Source: a virus. From it: DNA of 64,000 nucleotides. The position numbers were made by a program, and so were the translations under genes. Positions 7,635 through 59,776 of the stretch are shown here, in pieces; position 1 is the first letter of the stretch; each line of letters starts with the position of its first letter. The notes beneath the pieces are model-generated. The model ran no database searches, was not told where the DNA came from, and saw nothing but the letters and a program-made list of their open reading frames with translations. The DNA is taken from the IMG/VR virus record IMGVR_UViG_3300025012_000085, positions 1-64,000 of that record, one strand, 5' to 3'.

Positions 7635-7805
7635 ATGGATTTTCCAGAAACAATCACAATGGATGGAGAAGTAAAGTTAGTTTCGCCGTATGACATGAAA
7701 GGCCATTTTAAGTGGGTGGTTACTCAAGATGTTGTCTTAGTGGATCAAAGCTATTTAAGTGAACTTTTCTCCTACATACCGCCGGGGGTGGTTGCTTGTG
7801 TGTGA
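7635..7805 (+). CDS. 56-aa protein of a small two-member family
   Basis: AAAGGAGG lies nine bases before ATG 7635. The core GHFKWVVTQDVVLVDQSYL resembles that of a second small gene at 21061-21174 (minus strand, GFFKWIVVDDELTILDPLY), so this is a paralogous family. It overlaps the start of the downstream HNH gene by 8 bases, so HNH translation may be coupled to it. Function unknown; no membrane segment or metal motif. Confidence 0.6.
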   Translation: MDFPETITMDGEVKLVSPYDMKGHFKWVVTQDVVLVDQSYLSELFSYIPPGVVACV

Positions 7806-8715
7806 AATTAAGACGTGCAGTCGGTGTGGGAGAAATTTGCCAGCAGACAGGCTTCATTTTTATGTATCAAAAGGAACCAGGGGTGGGTTATATTCTTCTT
7901 GTCGAGAGTGTGGAGGGCGTGAGTTCCTAAAGCCTGAACCATTTATAAAAGATGGTCATAAGATATGCACCAAGTGCAAGCGAGAGCTTCCGGCCACCAC
8001 ATATTACTTTAGCAAGGATAAGGAATGCAGATTTGGCGTTTGCTCTATATGCAAGGAGTGTCGAGGGTATAAATTCATGGAGGTTATGAAGGTGGTTGAT
8101 GGATACAAAGAGTGTATCGTATGCCACAAGAAACTACCCTTCACTAGAGAGTATTTTTATAGCACCGGCTATACTTTAAGGGCAGATTGCAAGGAATGCG
8201 CTAGCAAGCAATCAAAAACGAAATATGATGAAAATAATCAACATAAGAGGCAATACGCAAGGGATTGGTATCAAAAGCATTGTTCCAACAATAAGGAATA
8301 TTTAGCAAAAGCAGTTATTAGGAGTACGCAGTATTCCATTGCTAATCGCCATCGTCAAAGTTATAAGACATCGTTAGCACTAAGGTCCCAAAGAAGAAGG
8401 GCGCTGGCGCATGACTTGCCAAGCACATTAACGGTTGAACAATGGAACTCCATCAAGGAACACTTTGCCCACAAATGTGCTTATTGTGGCAAGGATAAAA
8501 ACCTTACTTACGACCACTTTATTCCCTTAAAGAAAGGGGGTGGATTCACATATAATAATGTGATACCTGCTTGTAGGAATTGCAATAGTCAAAAGAGTGC
8601 GAAAGATTTTACTTCGTGGTTCAGGGGATTCAAGCACTACTCCCCCGAACGAGAAGCAAAAATCCTTTCCTACCTCGGTTATGTCAACGGCATCCAACAG
8701 CTCTCCCTAGTGTAA
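7798..8715 (+). CDS. HNH endonuclease with N-terminal zinc-ribbon repeats (copy 1)
   Basis: Free-standing homing-type nuclease of 305 aa from GTG 7798, chosen because GGGGGTGG precedes it and it then aligns with the starts of the two other copies. Three N-terminal zinc modules are visible: CSRCGRNLP with CRECGG, CTKCKRELP with CKECRG, CIVCHKKLP with CKECAS. A basic helical linker follows, then a C-terminal HNH domain (CAYCGKDKNLTYDHFIPL, CRNCNS) and a shared tail (ILSYLGYVNGIQQLSLV). It likely cuts a specific DNA site and promotes its own spread. The neighbours are unrelated, as expected for a mobile gene, and it is followed by a strong terminator. Confidence 0.88.
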   Translation: MCEIKTCSRCGRNLPADRLHFYVSKGTRGGLYSSCRECGGREFLKPEPFIKDGHKICTKCKRELPATTYYFSKDKECRFGVCSICKECRGYKFMEVMKVVDGYKECIVCHKKLPFTREYFYSTGYTLRADCKECASKQSKTKYDENNQHKRQYARDWYQKHCSNNKEYLAKAVIRSTQYSIANRHRQSYKTSLALRSQRRRALAHDLPSTLTVEQWNSIKEHFAHKCAYCGKDKNLTYDHFIPLKKGGGFTYNNVIPACRNCNSQKSAKDFTSWFRGFKHYSPEREAKILSYLGYVNGIQQLSLV

Positions 8716-19427: not shown

Positions 19428-19512
19428 TGGTATAATGTAAGTGTGGGATAGTGAATGCATCACGACAAGCGAGTTTCCTAGCTCGTTTCCCACTCTAAAC
19501 AAAACTAGGAAA
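19428..19512 (+). ncRNA. structured RNA element B with extended -10 promoter, leader of HNH copy 2
   Basis: TGGTATAAT (19428-19436) starts transcription at about 19443. Outer stem GTGGGA (19443-19448) pairs with TCCCAC (19488-19493). Hairpin GTGA (19451-19454) pairs with TCAC (19460-19463). Hairpin CGAG (19470-19473) pairs with CTCG (19482-19485), with loop TTTCCTAG (19474-19481). The loop pairs over eight bases with CTAGGAAA (19505-19512). AGGAGGG follows 14 bases later, then the HNH start. Confidence 0.7.
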
Positions 19513-19541
19513 AAGAAAAACCTTTAGGAGGGTTAATTTTT

Positions 19542-20357
19542 ATGCCCGAAACCAAGGTATGTAGTAGGTGTAAGCGTAGTCTTCCGGCTGATAAACTTCA
19601 TTTTTATCCCGCAAGCAATACCAAGGACAAGTTTCATTCTGCGTGCAAAGAGTGTGAAGGTCACAGATTTACGCAACCAAGGGTTATGAAGAATGGCTAT
19701 ATGATATGTTGTAAATGTGGGAAAGGGTTTCCATCGACAAGTGAATATTTTTCTAAGAAGAAAACTGCGAAAAGTGGTCTTAATGGCCGGTGCAAAAGCT
19801 GCGAGTCCAGCGCGCATAAAGCATACTACGAGAATAATAAGTCGTATATCTTAGCATCTGTCAAGAGGTATCGGGAGATAAATAAAGAAGAGAGAAGGGA
19901 ATACTATAGGGCTAATAAGCAGAGAAAATTAATAATGGTCAAGCAATGGCAAAGGAAAAATAAGGTACGCAGGGCAACTAATAATAGATTGTGGAAAGCG
20001 GCCAATATGGAGAAGATGCGCGTATACAGACAAACTAGGAGGGCAAGGAAAGAAAATTTACCATCTTCCTTAACGGTCGAGGAATGGATAAATATAAAAG
20101 CGGAATTTGAAAACAGATGTGCTTATTGCGGAAAAGACACACCACTAACCCAGGATCACTTTATCCCCTTATCTAAGCACGGGGAGTACACTCGTGATAA
20201 TATAATTCCGGCTTGCCCAAGTTGTAATAATGGCAAAAATGCAAGTAATCCATTCGAGTGGTATCCGATGCAATCGTTCTATAGCAAAGGTAGGGAATCT
20301 AAAATATTAAAGCATCTAGGATATAAGAATAACAAGCAACAACTGAGCTTGTTTTAG
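19542..20357 (+). CDS. HNH endonuclease with zinc-ribbon repeats (copy 2)
   Basis: 271 aa, plus strand within a minus-strand module, so an inserted mobile gene. Two N-terminal zinc modules (CSRCKRSLP with CKECEG; CCKCGKGFP with CKSCES), a basic helical linker, and a C-terminal HNH domain (CAYCGKDTPLTQDHFIPL, CPSCNN). The tail ILKHLGYKNNKQQLSLF matches the other two copies. Its leader is structured RNA element B and its stop overlaps a terminator, forming a self-contained cassette. Predicted site-specific homing nuclease. Confidence 0.88.
   Translation: MPETKVCSRCKRSLPADKLHFYPASNTKDKFHSACKECEGHRFTQPRVMKNGYMICCKCGKGFPSTSEYFSKKKTAKSGLNGRCKSCESSAHKAYYENNKSYILASVKRYREINKEERREYYRANKQRKLIMVKQWQRKNKVRRATNNRLWKAANMEKMRVYRQTRRARKENLPSSLTVEEWINIKAEFENRCAYCGKDTPLTQDHFIPLSKHGEYTRDNIIPACPSCNNGKNASNPFEWYPMQSFYSKGRESKILKHLGYKNNKQQLSLF
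20331..20356 (+). terminator. terminator overlapping the HNH copy 2 stop codon
   Basis: AACAAGC (20331-20337) pairs with GCTTGTT (20347-20353), followed by TTTAG. Confidence 0.6.
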
Positions 20358-50007: not shown

Positions 50008-51624
50008 ATGGTAGTTAAGAAGGAGAAGGCGAGTAAGGAAATTGTGGATGTTCCTGTTAAAGTTGATAGGCCTAAGATAAAGCAGAGTGACTTGCCATCG
50101 TTGGTGGCGATACAGGCTGAGTTAGGAAGGAGGAGTTGCCAATATTTCATAGAAAAATTCGTTAAGATAGAAGACAGGGACGCTGCTGAATTGGCAGTTC
50201 CTTTTACTTTATGGCCCGGTCAAGTTGTGGCATTAGATAGCTTCTCGAATAATAAGCTAAACATCGTATTAAAGGCTCGTCAGATGGGCCTGAGTTGGTT
50301 GGCGTTAGCTTACTCCACGTGGAGAGTAGTGCATCAAACGGGTTATTCCGTAGTCGCTATGTCAAAGCGTGAGGAAGACGCAAAGGAATTAACAAGGCGT
50401 ATCGTGTTCATTTTGAAATATCTTCCCCTAACCATGATTAGAGAGAAGAAAACAGCGGGTAAATGGGTTGGCCCAGTATGGGAAGCAACTACATTGAGTG
50501 TCACTATCTATCATCCAACTGGCGAACCAAGTATATTTAGCTCATTAACTTCTGCACAAGATTCAGGGCGTTCTCTTACGGCGAATCTAGTTGTTCTTGA
50601 TGAGTGGGCATTCCAGCAATGGGCTGATTCTATATGGCAATCTATATATCCTACTATTAACCGTCCAACCGGGGGGCAAGTAATAGGTATTTCCACAGCA
50701 AAGCGTATGACGTTATTCGAGGATTTGTGGAGAAAAGCAACACAGGGCGTAAACACATTTTCCCGCGTGTTCTTGCCATGGAATACTGACCCACGAAGAA
50801 CTCAAGAATGGTATGAACAAACTAAGAAGGATTTAGGAGAACAGAAGACAAAGGAAGAATATCCAAATACTCCTGAGGAAGCCTTCTCTGCCGCCGAGGG
50901 TGTGGCTTTCCCTGAGTTCAGCTATGATCTCCATGTGGTTACACCATTTAAGATACCTGACCACTGGCGGCGTTGGCGTTCTGCTGATAATGGTTACACA
51001 GATCCGTTCGCTTGGTATTGGGCAGCGGTTGATGAGTTCGGAACCGTATATATTTATAGAGAGTATACAAGGGATACGAGGGACCCGAAGGTTAGTTACT
51101 CGGACCAAGCTAAACAGGTTGTATTAAAGACGGGATCGGAGCGCATTGGCTTTACTGTAGTTGGTCATGATGCGTGGGCTGTACACCCTCTGACTAAAAG
51201 CACCAGTACACCACAGGGGAAGTCCATTATAGACTTCTATATTGAGGGTGGGGTTACCGATTGCATCAGAGCGGTTACCGACCGAATATTTAGAGCTGCA
51301 ACATTCCATGAATACCTTAAACCATATTGGGATGAGAATGCCGAGAAGATGACTAGTAAGGTTAAGATATTTAGTACATGCGAAAAGATTATCGAGACAT
51401 TGCCACAACTGCTTATTGATGAGCGTGACCCCGAAAAGTACATGGAATGCACATATGATCACTGGGCAGATTCCGTAGGCTATCTCTTAATTTCACATCA
51501 CAGCAACAAAACTGAGTTAGAAGTAACGCGTAACTATAAGGATTTACCAGACGACATACTAGAAGACATTGAAAGGGCTGACCCTAAAATGAGAGAGTAT
51601 ATTCTTTCCAAGATTGGCAGGTGA
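50008..51624 (+). CDS. terL: terminase large subunit
   Basis: 538 aa. The ATPase half has a Walker A-like LKARQMGLSWLALAYSTW (about residues 88-105) and Walker B NLVVLDEWAF (about 195). The C-terminal nuclease half has acidic residues in WRSADNGYTDPF, TVVGHDAWAV and ECTYDHWADSVG, spaced as in RNase H-fold terminase nucleases. Powers DNA packaging and cuts concatemers. Followed directly by the portal. Confidence 0.93.
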   Translation: MVVKKEKASKEIVDVPVKVDRPKIKQSDLPSLVAIQAELGRRSCQYFIEKFVKIEDRDAAELAVPFTLWPGQVVALDSFSNNKLNIVLKARQMGLSWLALAYSTWRVVHQTGYSVVAMSKREEDAKELTRRIVFILKYLPLTMIREKKTAGKWVGPVWEATTLSVTIYHPTGEPSIFSSLTSAQDSGRSLTANLVVLDEWAFQQWADSIWQSIYPTINRPTGGQVIGISTAKRMTLFEDLWRKATQGVNTFSRVFLPWNTDPRRTQEWYEQTKKDLGEQKTKEEYPNTPEEAFSAAEGVAFPEFSYDLHVVTPFKIPDHWRRWRSADNGYTDPFAWYWAAVDEFGTVYIYREYTRDTRDPKVSYSDQAKQVVLKTGSERIGFTVVGHDAWAVHPLTKSTSTPQGKSIIDFYIEGGVTDCIRAVTDRIFRAATFHEYLKPYWDENAEKMTSKVKIFSTCEKIIETLPQLLIDERDPEKYMECTYDHWADSVGYLLISHHSNKTELEVTRNYKDLPDDILEDIERADPKMREYILSKIGR

Positions 51625-51628
51625 TTAA

Positions 51629-53758
51629 ATGTTAAGTGGAATAAAAGACTTCGGCAAAAAGGTGGTGAAAAAGCTGAAAGATAAAAAACTCTCCATGAAA
51701 GAAGAGTCCGAACAGCAAGCTAAGTTAAAAAAGTGGCAGGATAAATTCAATGAAGCACGTACTGGCATTGATGAAGCAATCAGAGACGAGCGAGAAGCCA
51801 TCTATCTTGGCACAAAACTAGTTGATGGTAATATCAACTCTCGAAACACGGGAGGTAAGCGCAAGCAGGCCAACAACGTAGTCAACCTTGTCCTTGAGTT
51901 CATCGAAACGGGCGTTGACTCAACAATCCCACAACCCTCCGTCCGAACCAAGCTCCCTGGCTATGAAGTACAAGCCACAATGATCGAGGATTCCCTAACC
52001 TCAGACATAACAGAACTAGGCATGACAGCCATTAATGATGTTAACGAGCGCATAACCCCGGTGCAAGGCTACTCTGCTATGTTGGTGGGTTGGAATCCAG
52101 ACTTTAAGCATCACCTATACCGTGGCGAGTTGGAAATAGAGTCAGTCCATCCCAAAAGGATTATTCCGCAACCCGGCGTATTTGACCTTCAAAAAATGGA
52201 CTACTTCTTTATTTTGAGTTCAGTCACAAAGAACTACATCAAAAAACGGTATGATGTGGATCTCGAGAATGTAGGAGAACAATTTCCCAACATTAGCCTT
52301 GTCAGTAACACCACTCAGCCCAACAACCCCGACATGGTAACAGAGATCGTGTGCTGGTACAAGAATGATGATGGAGAAGTGTCAAAGCTTGTTTGGTGCG
52401 AGGATGAAATCCTTGAAGATATGGAAAACTTTTATGCAAGGCGCATCAACGGCAAGATTCAAGAGTTTGAAGAGCTAGGTACAGAAGTAACATTATCCTC
52501 GGTTAATGGGCAACCCGGCGAAGTCCTCCCTGTAGGAACAAAAGTTCCCTACTTCACTCCAACACGCTACCCTCTAATCATTCGCGAGAACATTCCCCTC
52601 AACTTCGCATTTGGTGGACAATCTGACGTAGATGTTATCCGCGACCAACAAGACGCTTATAAAAAAGTAGTCTCCACTATTGAGGAAAAGATTTTACGTG
52701 GGTCTGTTGTGGTTACAGCTTTAGACGGTCATAGGTTCAACCTATCTAATGAGTTATACGGAATTATTAGGGGCACTCAGTCCGAGTTGAACGCGCTCAA
52801 TGTAAAGAATTTGTCTGCAAATATTTCCAACGACCTTGCCTTTGCTCAACAACAATACAAGGCAGCACAGTCAACCCTCGGTATAACAAACTCATATCAA
52901 GGTAAATCAGACTCGACCGCAGTATCCGGTCTAGCAAAGCAAATCCAAGTACAGCAAGCGTCCGGTCGCCTACGCTCAAAAGAATCAAACAAATACGCCG
53001 CATTTAAGCAACTCTACGAAATCATGTTCGAGTTCAAATTAGCATTCTATGATGAACTTCGACCATTCGTAACAAAAGACGCTAATGGACAAGATTCATT
53101 CGGCGATTTCAATAAGTATGCCTTTCTTGTTCGCGATAAAGCAGGAGAACTCTACTACAACACAGACTTCATCTTTCAAGCAGACGCAGGGGCAGGGCTA
53201 CCGCGAGACAAGATGTGGCTATTTAACCAAGCGACAGAAATGCTGAAGTATGGGGCGTATAACCCGGGCCCAGCTTCTGTTGTTCTGTGGACTCAATTAG
53301 TGGCTCAGAAATTCCCTAATGCCAAAGCAATTCTCGACAGCATCAATAAGCAACTTGAAGCACAGGCAAAAGCACCACCCGCACAACCTGAATCGAAAGT
53401 ATCCATCAACTACGAGGACTTAATGCCTGATGCTCAATCTCAAATGTTAGGCAAGATGGGGATTAAGTCACAAGGAGGACAACCTGAACAGATGGGTCAA
53501 TTATTACAAATGCCACAACCCAACGCAACACCGCAACAACCTGCACAACCTCAAGAGATGTCACCACGGGCTACAGAACAGCCTATGGAACCACAACAAC
53601 CTCAACCTCAAGTAAACCCACAGGGTCAAGTTCAACAAGTTTTAGAGCAAGCCATGCAACATATGAGTGAAGAGGAGAGACAAGCGTTTGCTCAACTTCC
53701 GGATGAGAAGAAGATTGAAATCGTTCAGCAGTTAATGATGCAGGGAGGGCAACAATAA
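51629..53758 (+). CDS. portal protein
   Basis: 709 aa. Starts five bases after TerL. The N-terminal half contains typical portal segments (VDGNINSRNTGGKRKQANNV, SVHPKRIIPQPGVFDLQKMD), the central region a long helix (SDSTAVSGLAKQIQVQQASG). The last 130 residues are Pro/Gln-rich low complexity (QPEQMGQLLQMPQPNATPQQ) with a final helix SEEERQAFAQLPDEKKIEIV. Forms the dodecameric DNA gate. The long Gln-rich tail may be a crown extension. Confidence 0.88.
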   Translation: MLSGIKDFGKKVVKKLKDKKLSMKEESEQQAKLKKWQDKFNEARTGIDEAIRDEREAIYLGTKLVDGNINSRNTGGKRKQANNVVNLVLEFIETGVDSTIPQPSVRTKLPGYEVQATMIEDSLTSDITELGMTAINDVNERITPVQGYSAMLVGWNPDFKHHLYRGELEIESVHPKRIIPQPGVFDLQKMDYFFILSSVTKNYIKKRYDVDLENVGEQFPNISLVSNTTQPNNPDMVTEIVCWYKNDDGEVSKLVWCEDEILEDMENFYARRINGKIQEFEELGTEVTLSSVNGQPGEVLPVGTKVPYFTPTRYPLIIRENIPLNFAFGGQSDVDVIRDQQDAYKKVVSTIEEKILRGSVVVTALDGHRFNLSNELYGIIRGTQSELNALNVKNLSANISNDLAFAQQQYKAAQSTLGITNSYQGKSDSTAVSGLAKQIQVQQASGRLRSKESNKYAAFKQLYEIMFEFKLAFYDELRPFVTKDANGQDSFGDFNKYAFLVRDKAGELYYNTDFIFQADAGAGLPRDKMWLFNQATEMLKYGAYNPGPASVVLWTQLVAQKFPNAKAILDSINKQLEAQAKAPPAQPESKVSINYEDLMPDAQSQMLGKMGIKSQGGQPEQMGQLLQMPQPNATPQQPAQPQEMSPRATEQPMEPQQPQPQVNPQGQVQQVLEQAMQHMSEEERQAFAQLPDEKKIEIVQQLMMQGGQQ

Positions 53759-57661: not shown

Positions 57662-58570
57662 TTGAACCTCTCTGAGATAAGGGATTTAGCGTACAAGCTT
57701 GCTAATACCTATAGTGCAGATGGGCAACTTATTCCGTTATCGGATAACGCAGATGCCCGTCTAGCCATGACTGATTTTATCAATACTGGCTATTACAAAA
57801 GCCTACAATTTACGCCTGTCGAGGCTGTCTATAGTATCACTCAAAAAAGCATACCAAACCTACTTAATATGTATTCTTCTTTTAATCTCGTTCAGCACTT
57901 GGATACGGATTACACAGTTACCGCGACAAGTGCAAAAAGTTATTATTTTGAAGTTGATAAAGATTGCGTAGTTTATATCGAGGAAATCATTTCCGGGGTA
58001 TGGACAACACTGTCTACCATTACAGTTACCGGAATAACATCCTTTACCGAATACAAGGGACTCATTACTGCATCGAATGTAGCCAATGATATCCGCATAC
58101 GCTTTTCAGGAAATTATCCCTACAATATTCGTCGAACTGCTTTGTATTATTACTCCTTTGCAAGTGCCAATGACGTGCCTAAATTCAAGCCGTATGTAAA
58201 CTACCCTTTGCCGGGAGATTATATTTCGCTTAATAAGATTGTGGTTAACGGAGATGACAGAGAACACAGTACGCTCATCGACTACGGTATTGAAAAAAAG
58301 AATTTAGTCTTGAACTACTTTTATAGCGGGTCATTTGACGTGCATTATTTTAAGAGGCCAGACCCATTGGTATTAGATACGGATATTCCCGAAACACCCA
58401 TAGAGGGTCATTCTTACTTGGCATATTTTTCAAGTGGAAGTTGGTTATTCAGTACAGGGCAACAAGCCCAAGGATTGACGCTTATTAATCAATACGACTC
58501 GTTTATGACCGAATCAACTCCGACAATAGATGAGCAGAACGGGACGATTGAAAACTTTAATAATTGGTAA
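57662..58570 (+). CDS. putative head-tail adaptor/neck protein
   Basis: 302 aa from TTG 57662 (AGGGGG upstream). N-terminal helical region (LSEIRDLAYKLANTYSADGQ, ARLAMTDFINTGYYKS), then a beta-rich body (SGVWTTLSTITVTGITSFTE) and FDVHYFKRPDPLVLDTDIPE. Layout resembles adaptor/neck proteins of short-tailed phages. Confidence 0.7.
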   Translation: MNLSEIRDLAYKLANTYSADGQLIPLSDNADARLAMTDFINTGYYKSLQFTPVEAVYSITQKSIPNLLNMYSSFNLVQHLDTDYTVTATSAKSYYFEVDKDCVVYIEEIISGVWTTLSTITVTGITSFTEYKGLITASNVANDIRIRFSGNYPYNIRRTALYYYSFASANDVPKFKPYVNYPLPGDYISLNKIVVNGDDREHSTLIDYGIEKKNLVLNYFYSGSFDVHYFKRPDPLVLDTDIPETPIEGHSYLAYFSSGSWLFSTGQQAQGLTLINQYDSFMTESTPTIDEQNGTIENFNNW

Positions 58571-58584
58571 TTAGGCATGAAAAG

Positions 58585-58673
58585 TGGTATAATATAAGTA
58601 GCGAATAGTAGGGAGTAGCTACCTTGCTATGGGGGATTTCCTAGTCCCCCGCGCTACGGAAATAGCTAGGAAA
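58585..58673 (+). ncRNA. structured RNA element C with extended -10 promoter, leader of HNH copy 3
   Basis: TGGTATAAT (58585-58593), with TTGGTA 18 bases upstream of the -10 box. Outer stem GTAGCG (58598-58603) pairs with CGCTAC (58652-58657). Hairpin ATAG (58605-58608) pairs with CTAT (58627-58630), with inner AGG/CCT. Hairpin GGGGGA (58631-58636) pairs with TCCCCC (58645-58650), with loop TTTCCTAG (58637-58644). The loop pairs with CTAGGAAA (58666-58673). AGGAGGG follows at 58688. Confidence 0.7.
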
Positions 58674-58702
58674 ATAAGAAGCCTGTAGGAGGGTGTTTTG
58701 TT

Positions 58703-59776
58703 TTGTCCGAAATGAAGATTTGTAGTAAGTGTGGGGAAGAGTTTCTGTTAACTATTGAATATTTTTACCGCAAAAAGACTTCTAAAGATGGCTATGAGGG
58801 ACAGTGTAAAAAGTGTATAGCAAAGCGTAATGCAAGTTACGTCAAGAAGCCCAAGAGGGTATTTATTAATGATACTAAGGAAAATTATCCTTCTGGTACA
58901 AAGGAATGTTCTATATGCAAACGTGAATTACCTGCTGATGAAAATCATTTCTACCTAGATAGTAATTATCCTGGGAAATTCGTTTCGGCATGCAAGGAAT
59001 GTCGAGGATATAATTTTAATAAACCGAAAGCAATCACAAGAGAAGGTCATAAGATTTGCTCAAAGTGCGAGATTGAAAAACCACTAACTAGTGATTATTT
59101 TAGCGAAAGACCCAAGGGTTCAATTGATGGATTTAGGGGAGAATGTAGAACGTGTGAGACGTCACGCATTCGGGAATGGACAAGCAGAAACAGAGTTGTG
59201 CGTAGGGAAAAACAAAGGGAGTGGAAATATTCAGACCCAAAAAGAAAAGAAAAATGGGATTCATATTACAGCAAGAATAGGGATGCAATAATAGCTAGGG
59301 CTAAGAAATGGGATACGGAACACAAGGAAAGGTCTTTACTTAGGTCTCATGAATGGTATGAAAATAACAAAGAAAGGTCAAAGGCTAATACGGTGGCTTG
59401 GCGCAAGGCTAATCCTGAGAAAAAGGCGTTGTCGCATCAAAAACGTAGATCGTTAAAAAAGAAACTTAAATCCACGCTGACCATTGAACAGTGGGAAATA
59501 ACCCTAAATCATTTTAATGGAAAATGTGCCTACTGTGGGGAAGGCCCGAAAGACGGAGATGTTCTTCAGAGGGATCATTTTCAGCCATTGGCAAAACATG
59601 GTGAATATTCTGCTATTAATGTATTGCCAGCCTGTAAGTTCTGTAATAGCAGTAAGGGGAAGAAAATATTCTCTATGTGGTATCCGCTTTTTAAGCACTA
59701 CTCACCAAAGCGTGAAAGAGATATTCTTAAATATCTAAATTACCGCAATGGGGTACAACAACTAGCACTCATATAG
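58703..59776 (+). CDS. HNH endonuclease with zinc-ribbon repeats (copy 3)
   Basis: 357 aa from TTG 58703, inserted between two virion genes. Three zinc modules (CSKCGEEFL with CKKCIA; CSICKRELP with CKECRG; CSKCEIEKP with CRTCET), a long basic helical region, then HNH (CAYCGEGPKDGD, RDHFQPLAKHG, CKFCNS). The shared tail is ILKYLNYRNGVQQLALI. Own promoter, structured leader and terminator, so independent of the late transcript. Confidence 0.88.
   Translation: MSEMKICSKCGEEFLLTIEYFYRKKTSKDGYEGQCKKCIAKRNASYVKKPKRVFINDTKENYPSGTKECSICKRELPADENHFYLDSNYPGKFVSACKECRGYNFNKPKAITREGHKICSKCEIEKPLTSDYFSERPKGSIDGFRGECRTCETSRIREWTSRNRVVRREKQREWKYSDPKRKEKWDSYYSKNRDAIIARAKKWDTEHKERSLLRSHEWYENNKERSKANTVAWRKANPEKKALSHQKRRSLKKKLKSTLTIEQWEITLNHFNGKCAYCGEGPKDGDVLQRDHFQPLAKHGEYSAINVLPACKFCNSSKGKKIFSMWYPLFKHYSPKRERDILKYLNYRNGVQQLALI

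Follow-up and report, generated by a model that had tools for sequence, protein, structure and literature searches.

Structured leaders ahead of HNH genes in the window

Why does an endonuclease gene in phage DNA begin behind a folded RNA, and what could this RNA do for the gene? The window, i.e., the whole stretch of DNA analysed here, is 64,000 bases long, out of 64,923 in the virus record, and holds three related HNH genes, with a folded leader before copies 2 and 3 (Table 1). Positions 58598-58693 are a structured 5' leader, made of three stems (P1, P2, and P3) and an 8-bp pseudoknot between the P3 loop (L3) and a downstream partner (PKb), and this leader (C) stands ahead of an HNH gene whose protein has Cx2C repeats at its N-terminus and HNH at its C-terminus. 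A second copy of the leader (B) lies at 19443-19532, and CCTnTAGGAGGG is present in both. The core of leader C had a folding energy of −32.4 kcal/mol (z = −5.2 relative to dinucleotide shuffles) and adopted the family structure by itself. A covariance model whose seed drew on other members and did not include C recovered leader C with 33.5 bits and an E value of about 1e-6 to 2e-6. When the window was scanned unfiltered with the later model (R2), whose seed included both B and C, these two were the only finds, everything else having E > 1. HNH copy 1 was without such a leader in the covariance-model scan of the window, and the start of this gene seems to be differently arranged.

The stems, loop, partner, and SD that the original prediction had named for leader C are all present at 58598-58692, but that prediction had overlooked the promoter, the role of the SD as second partner of the loop, and the P2 hairpin, whose loop is palindromic. 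The distance from the pseudoknot to the ribosome binding site had been given as 14 bases in C and 13 in B; the spacing from partner to AGGAGG is in fact 13 nt in both copies.

Table 1 Features of leaders B and C and of the HNH genes in the window
Feature	Position	Strand	Remarks
HNH gene, copy 1	7759..8715		
Member B extended −10 promoter TGGTATAAT	19428..19436	+	Consensus match
Member B, whole leader	19443..19532	+	
Member B P1	19443-19447/19489-19493	+	
Member B P2	19451-19453/19461-19463	+	
Member B P2-loop palindrome ATGCAT	19455-19460	+	
Member B P3	19467-19473/19482-19488	+	
Member B L3	19474-19481	+	
Member B PKb	19505-19512	+	
Member B SD	19526-19531	+	
HNH homing endonuclease behind member B (copy 2)	19542..20357	+	271 aa; PF01844 1.2e-11
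Leader C extended −10 promoter TGGTATAAT	58585..58593	+	Consensus match only; predicted +1 about 58600, inside or at P1
Leader C P1 5' strand GTAGCG	58598..58603	+	
Leader C P2 5' strand	58605..58613	+	Fold; P2 covariation
Leader C P2 loop AGTAGCTA	58614..58621	+	Self-complementary TAGCTA 58616-58621, proposed kissing-dimer site
Leader C P2 3' strand	58622..58630	+	Fold
Leader C P3 5' strand GGGGGA	58631..58636	+	
Leader C L3 TTTCCTAG	58637..58644	+	Pairs with PKb (8 bp) or SD (TTTCCTA/TAGGAGG, 5 Watson-Crick + 2 G-U)
Leader C P3 3' strand TCCCCC	58645..58650	+	
Leader C P1 3' strand CGCTAC	58652..58657	+	
Leader C PKb CTAGGAAA	58666..58673	+	Pseudoknot partner of L3, from compensatory L3/PKb variants
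Leader C SD TAGGAGGG	58686..58693	+	Alternative L3 partner, by loop/SD covariation; AGGAGG core at 58687-58692
HNH homing endonuclease behind leader C (copy 3)	58703..59776	+	TTG start, 357 aa; Pfam PF01844 4.3e-06, PHROG 1035 5.2e-40

Members of the leader family

The prediction that an RNA family heads endonuclease genes held up, and 28 such leaders were collected from phage DNA, 27 of them by the covariance models R1 and R2 and the last by reading contig G020. A pattern of loop, partner, and SD picked out nine true loci among the viral contigs, though some of these copies are nearly identical; patterns that were relaxed or independent of the pseudoknot gave further loci, including copies with altered pseudoknots. 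A single-protein query yielded one weak locus, and an HNH protein alignment used as query yielded 80 HNH loci, several with very divergent leaders. In the search for other HNH genes with the leader, which had been proposed with the original prediction, the model detected a leader near 11 of the 80 loci, and HNH relatives without one were common. When relatives of the GIY-YIG protein were searched, the leader was found only at the query pair and its own contig, and no significant match to the leader was obtained in Lactococcus, Staphylococcus, SPbeta-type, and f2b1 phages. Bacterial genomes searched under stricter filters gave 1/82 in the class of the MAG and 0/398 in the class of a Bacilli genome. 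Seven of the eight pattern matches among genome contigs (all except L015) were judged by eye to be unrelated, and L042-L044, L045, L046, and L048-L050 were discarded as chance pattern matches.

A −10-like hexamer (at least 5/6 matches to TATAAT) was located 3-7 nt upstream of P1 in 26 of the 27 aligned members and was extended in 23 of them. The predicted +1, which depends on the consensus match, lies on the first P1 base or no more than about 3 nt from it. The sole member without such a hexamer is the copy of Sporosarcina phage Lietuvens, which lies just after the terminase gene.

Covariation of stems and pseudoknot

Among the 27 members, 93.5% of the 399 stem cells were paired, and both-side changes occurred at all 15 pairs. 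Fitting the alignment to the structure works in favour of the stem covariation score of 0.852 (0.252 when shuffled and 0.12-0.18 with slid partners), but given the slid control and how large the effect is, there is little doubt about the stems as predicted from these sequences. Selection on structure had been claimed earlier, with leader homologues lacking paired stems named as the observation that would refute it, and the outcome favours the claim, with pairing retained in 93.5% of stem cells across the 27 members.

Every member had an L3:PKb pseudoknot, of 4-9 bp, and at least 10 distinct compensated sequences occurred among them; these pairs were counted from hand-assigned segments because the alignment based on the covariance model misplaces part of PKb. 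Changes on both sides include TTTCCTAG/CTAGGAAA, TTTCCTCAA/TTGAGGAAA, and TCTCGG/CCGAGA, among others, and further L3/PKb variants at the RNA level are UUUCCUCAA/UUGAGGAAA, UUUCCCAAA/UUUGGGAAA, UCUCGG/CCGAGA, and GCCUUA/UAAGGC, while the G020 copy has ACAUCCGA/UCGGAUGU. The loop had been described as constant, but TTTCCTAG proved to be one variant that changes together with its partner and SD. We consider the existence and structure of the leader family very secure.

The junction bases (AUA / GAC-GAA) are strongly conserved while the stems vary, and this is in keeping with a metabolite riboswitch that has the junction as its aptamer. We think such a riboswitch quite unlikely, since the gene context offers no known ligand theme and the conserved junction bases may merely set helix stacking. 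The PreQ1-I riboswitch model scored only 21.2 bits (E 6.2) on L213 1526-1575, which overlaps member B, against a gathering cut-off of 39.

Genes behind the leaders and their mobility

Most of the downstream genes encode HNH proteins. The true members found by DNA pattern, without any protein query, all precede an endonuclease gene, and the HNH share among the remaining members is biased by the protein query. That the RNA is an HNH leader is correct, but it is not specific to HNH: in L006 and L007 it heads a GIY-YIG/NUMOD3 protein without a match to a zinc-ribbon family, and in L223 it heads a zinc-ribbon protein that is a Vsr-type homing endonuclease by the annotation of its relatives. Shared by HNH, GIY-YIG, and Vsr-like enzymes, such a leader would serve selfish genes as an expression module that is interchangeable between them. 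Start codons are TTG in the window at 58703 and in L004, L047, and L053, and ATG at the same spacing in most other members.

This range of enzymes bears on autoregulation, in which the endonuclease or its zinc ribbon would bind the leader and bring about an off state. The Cx2C repeats of the HNH partners and the precedent of T4 gene 32, where autoregulation by protein and pseudoknot is known (PMC3014915), speak for such a loop of control. No single domain is common to the enzymes that share the leader, though, as a Vsr-like enzyme is among them and the GIY-YIG protein has GIY-YIG and NUMOD3 matches but none to a zinc-ribbon family, and the related E. coli RNAs described below precede an unrelated gene. 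Zinc-ribbon autoregulation, which had been put forward earlier, therefore fails as a general mechanism, and we give autoregulation in any form little credence.

In G003, leader and gene lie inside an insert of approximately 1.8 kb that is missing from the close relative G004, and in this one phage pair the two were, judged from the comparison, inserted together. The G003 insert (L254 4946-6762) lies within a long open reading frame, which is uninterrupted in the relative (L007 8256-8279). A cassette inside an open reading frame might recall a remnant of a group I intron, but Rfam found no group I intron at the G003 insert, and chance similarity is excluded by the covariation across 27 members, so that a chance resemblance or an intron remnant is extremely improbable. 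Leader and endonuclease were also found between terminase and portal in L041, L053, and phage Lietuvens, and the terminase-portal junction of the window (51624-51629) is an empty site with neither leader nor endonuclease; the junction looks like a recurrent insertion point.

Two loci show the leader ahead of something other than an intact endonuclease gene. In L029 (12436-12740, −), the HNH gene behind the leader is frameshifted, with its N- and C-terminal halves in different frames, and this decaying homing endonuclease retains its leader. The second copy in L032 (3828-3923, −) has a good pseudoknot, but the 78-aa ORF behind it does not encode an endonuclease; this copy may have been domesticated, or it may be what a lost endonuclease gene left behind.

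The loop covaries with the SD

In B and C, PKb (CTAGGAAA) and SD (TAGGAGGG) have TAGGA in common, so the loop TTTCCTA can pair with either. The same relation was seen where the SD departs from AGGAGG, as such SDs shift in step with the loop: CGAGAGG/UCUCG (Lietuvens), UCGGAGG/UCCGA (L079), AAGGCGG/GCCUU (L056), AAGGAU/AUCCU (L105), UGGGAGG/CCCA (L223), and UGAGGGG/CCUCA (L053). In L051, the loop scarcely pairs with its own SD (3 Watson-Crick pairs, −3.5 kcal/mol). All SDs are purine-rich, which produces some automatic loop/SD pairing, and this was controlled by permutation: the 19 distinct loop/SD combinations outdid 20,000 of 20,000 permutations. An exact permutation with one representative for each of nine SD classes, which were set after viewing the data and may not be fully independent by descent, gave 4/362,880 when scored by Watson-Crick run and 2/362,880 when scored by energy, and after two E. 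coli int-alpA classes were added, the figure was 0/1,000,000. The boundaries of loop, PKb, SD window, and P2 loop were placed by hand. Within these limits, the covariation of loop and SD in the aligned sequences is secure.

The two pairings of L3 lie about 1-2 kcal/mol apart in most members and a few kcal/mol at most, with L3:PKb generally the stronger. A loop that can pair with PKb or SD at similar energy implies a bistable translation switch. That the leader regulates translation, as originally supposed, is very likely on sequence grounds, and its reading as the 5'-terminal leader of the homing-endonuclease mRNA, acting in cis as such a switch, is in our judgement rather probable. The leader's own extended −10 promoter would start transcription at P1 or no more than a few bases away, and P1, P2, and P3 would then form a compact three-way junction in which P3 presents L3. 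PKb would emerge first and bind L3 slightly more strongly, leaving the SD free, and the switch would thus begin in the on state; from the masking of the SD by L3 we infer which state is off. With the two states near balance, a small bias would suffice to restrain the endonuclease. We likewise infer that switching takes place and what could trigger it, the candidate biases being translation, mRNA dimers joined at the palindromic P2 loop, a bound factor, temperature, and a read-through instead of an own-promoter transcript. The off state may be rarely populated, L3:PKb usually being the earlier and more stable pairing.

That same stability would also suit a static 5'-terminal structure that guards against 5'-end-dependent decay of the mRNA and holds the SD free of structure, with a pseudoknot that is never switched, and the predicted +1 at or near P1 means that the mRNA would start with a helix. 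This static shield is unlikely in our view, as it leaves unexplained why non-canonical SDs match their own loops, and also why intercistronic int-alpA RNAs behind integrase genes have the same loop/SD relation. The joint change of loop and downstream SD argues likewise against a trans-acting small RNA with an anti-SD loop. The resemblance of the loop to an anti-SD and the Rfam type of int-alpA (Gene; sRNA) are consistent with a small RNA, but the leaders that head endonucleases stand at near-fixed spacing before SD and start codon and have no obvious terminator-like end, and we hold a small RNA to be very improbable.

Palindromic P2 loops

A 6-nt palindrome was present in 14 of the 18 distinct P2 loops, in eight different sequences. 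Shuffling gave 1.5 such loops on average, and 14 were reached in 0 of 200,000 trials. Members without the palindrome are L011, L031, L041, L224, and the G020 copy. Because the sequence varies while self-complementarity stays constant, the comparison suggests that P2 loops form kissing-loop homodimers rather than a protein site. A bolder proposal, which we regard as doubtful, is that the bistable switch acts as a dose sensor: accumulating endonuclease mRNAs would kiss through their P2 loops, and the dimer would move L3 off PKb and onto the SD, whether in cis or on the partner molecule. The loops of B (ATGCAT) and C (TAGCTA) differ, so each copy would sense itself only. If this were true, a selfish gene would limit its own nuclease through RNA concentration alone.

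Relation to int-alpA

A search of Rfam over the whole window and at 58560-58720 (E ≤ 5) gave no match, and the int-alpA model RF02996 did not match window leaders B and C even at E 10, both staying below its gathering cut-off of 35.8 bits. Divergent members passed this cut-off (L224 with 41.8, L083 with 40.1, and L063 with 38.4 bits), and L105 remained below it with 32.0 bits. In the reverse direction, R2 weakly matched seven E. coli/Klebsiella-phage int-alpA RNAs at the Rfam position (15-24 bits, E 0.001-0.08). A three-way junction of P1, P2, and P3, with a P3 loop complementary to a segment 3' of P1, is found both in our leaders and in the Rfam consensus. Because the intermediates L224, L083, and L063 pass RF02996 and R2 matches E. 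coli int-alpA, the window leaders are, on sequence and predicted structure, a divergent new branch of int-alpA, linked to homing endonucleases and in the same superfamily through tested intermediates. The leader family thus belongs with a described RNA motif, by the same comparisons, and the original prediction is corrected in this respect.

In E. coli, int-alpA copies come immediately behind an integrase gene, and the gene that they precede is an unrelated one. At L257 896-961 and similar E. coli loci, the RNA follows right behind the integrase stop codon and is followed by an uncharacterised gene, and no promoter was noticed between integrase and RNA. The E. coli RNAs show the same loop/SD covariation as the endonuclease-linked branch (GCCUUA with AAGGU, ACCCUA with AGGGU). 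They are without the P2-loop palindrome and have GACG or GGCC-type loops there.

To our knowledge, int-alpA is a published structured-RNA candidate without an assigned function. The present analysis extends it to phage homing-endonuclease genes and offers a new, concrete candidate mechanism, one loop with two competing partners including the SD, which is backed by three-way sequence covariation. Members occur in the cultured Sporosarcina phage Lietuvens and in some E. coli strains, which makes the proposed switch directly testable.

Comparison with known systems

The endonuclease-linked leaders are like int-alpA in the P1-P2-P3 three-way junction, the (C)UA and GAAAAG junctions, and a P3 loop complementary to the 3' end. 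Unlike int-alpA, they have their own predicted promoter, palindromic P2 loops, and A-U pairs at the base of P3, and they precede homing endonuclease genes instead of following an integrase gene, and an association with integrase or alpA genes is not seen in them. HEARO (HNH Endonuclease-Associated RNA) is likewise named for an association with HNH genes, but it is much larger and is a guide-type RNA of IscB-like enzymes; neither HEARO nor omega RNA was matched by Rfam over the window or at 58560-58720 (E ≤ 5).

In ColIb-P9 repZ, the conformations reportedly exclude each other, the one with the pseudoknot being active in translation. For repZ, as for timP, we know of no evidence of a loop that is the common partner of a decoy and the SD, and both differ from our leaders in their unrelated sequences and in regulation by antisense RNA. 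The likeness of the timP mRNA pseudoknot to our leaders is again in the mutually exclusive conformers, of which the pseudoknot form is translationally active (PMC11228461). The T4 gene 32 leader is also a phage pseudoknot upstream of a ribosome binding site that controls translation, but it is a two-stem pseudoknot bound by gp32, and an alternative loop/SD pairing is not described there (PMC3014915).

RNA control of homing endonucleases is already known from T4-type hairpins (PMC2988022, PMC3014915), and hairpins that sequester the ribosome binding site are found in I-TevI, I-TevII, I-TevIII, segB, and Aeh1 mobE (PMC2988022). Like our leaders, these are leader RNAs that control homing endonuclease translation with a promoter right beside them (PMC2988022). 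They differ in being simple hairpins that sequester the site directly, in the case of I-TevI only on read-through transcripts, and neither a pseudoknot or competing partner nor a sequence family across endonuclease types is described for them (PMC2988022). In the leaders reported here, the SD is located beyond P1-P3, where it can pair with L3, and the transcript predicted from the leader's own promoter includes the structure.
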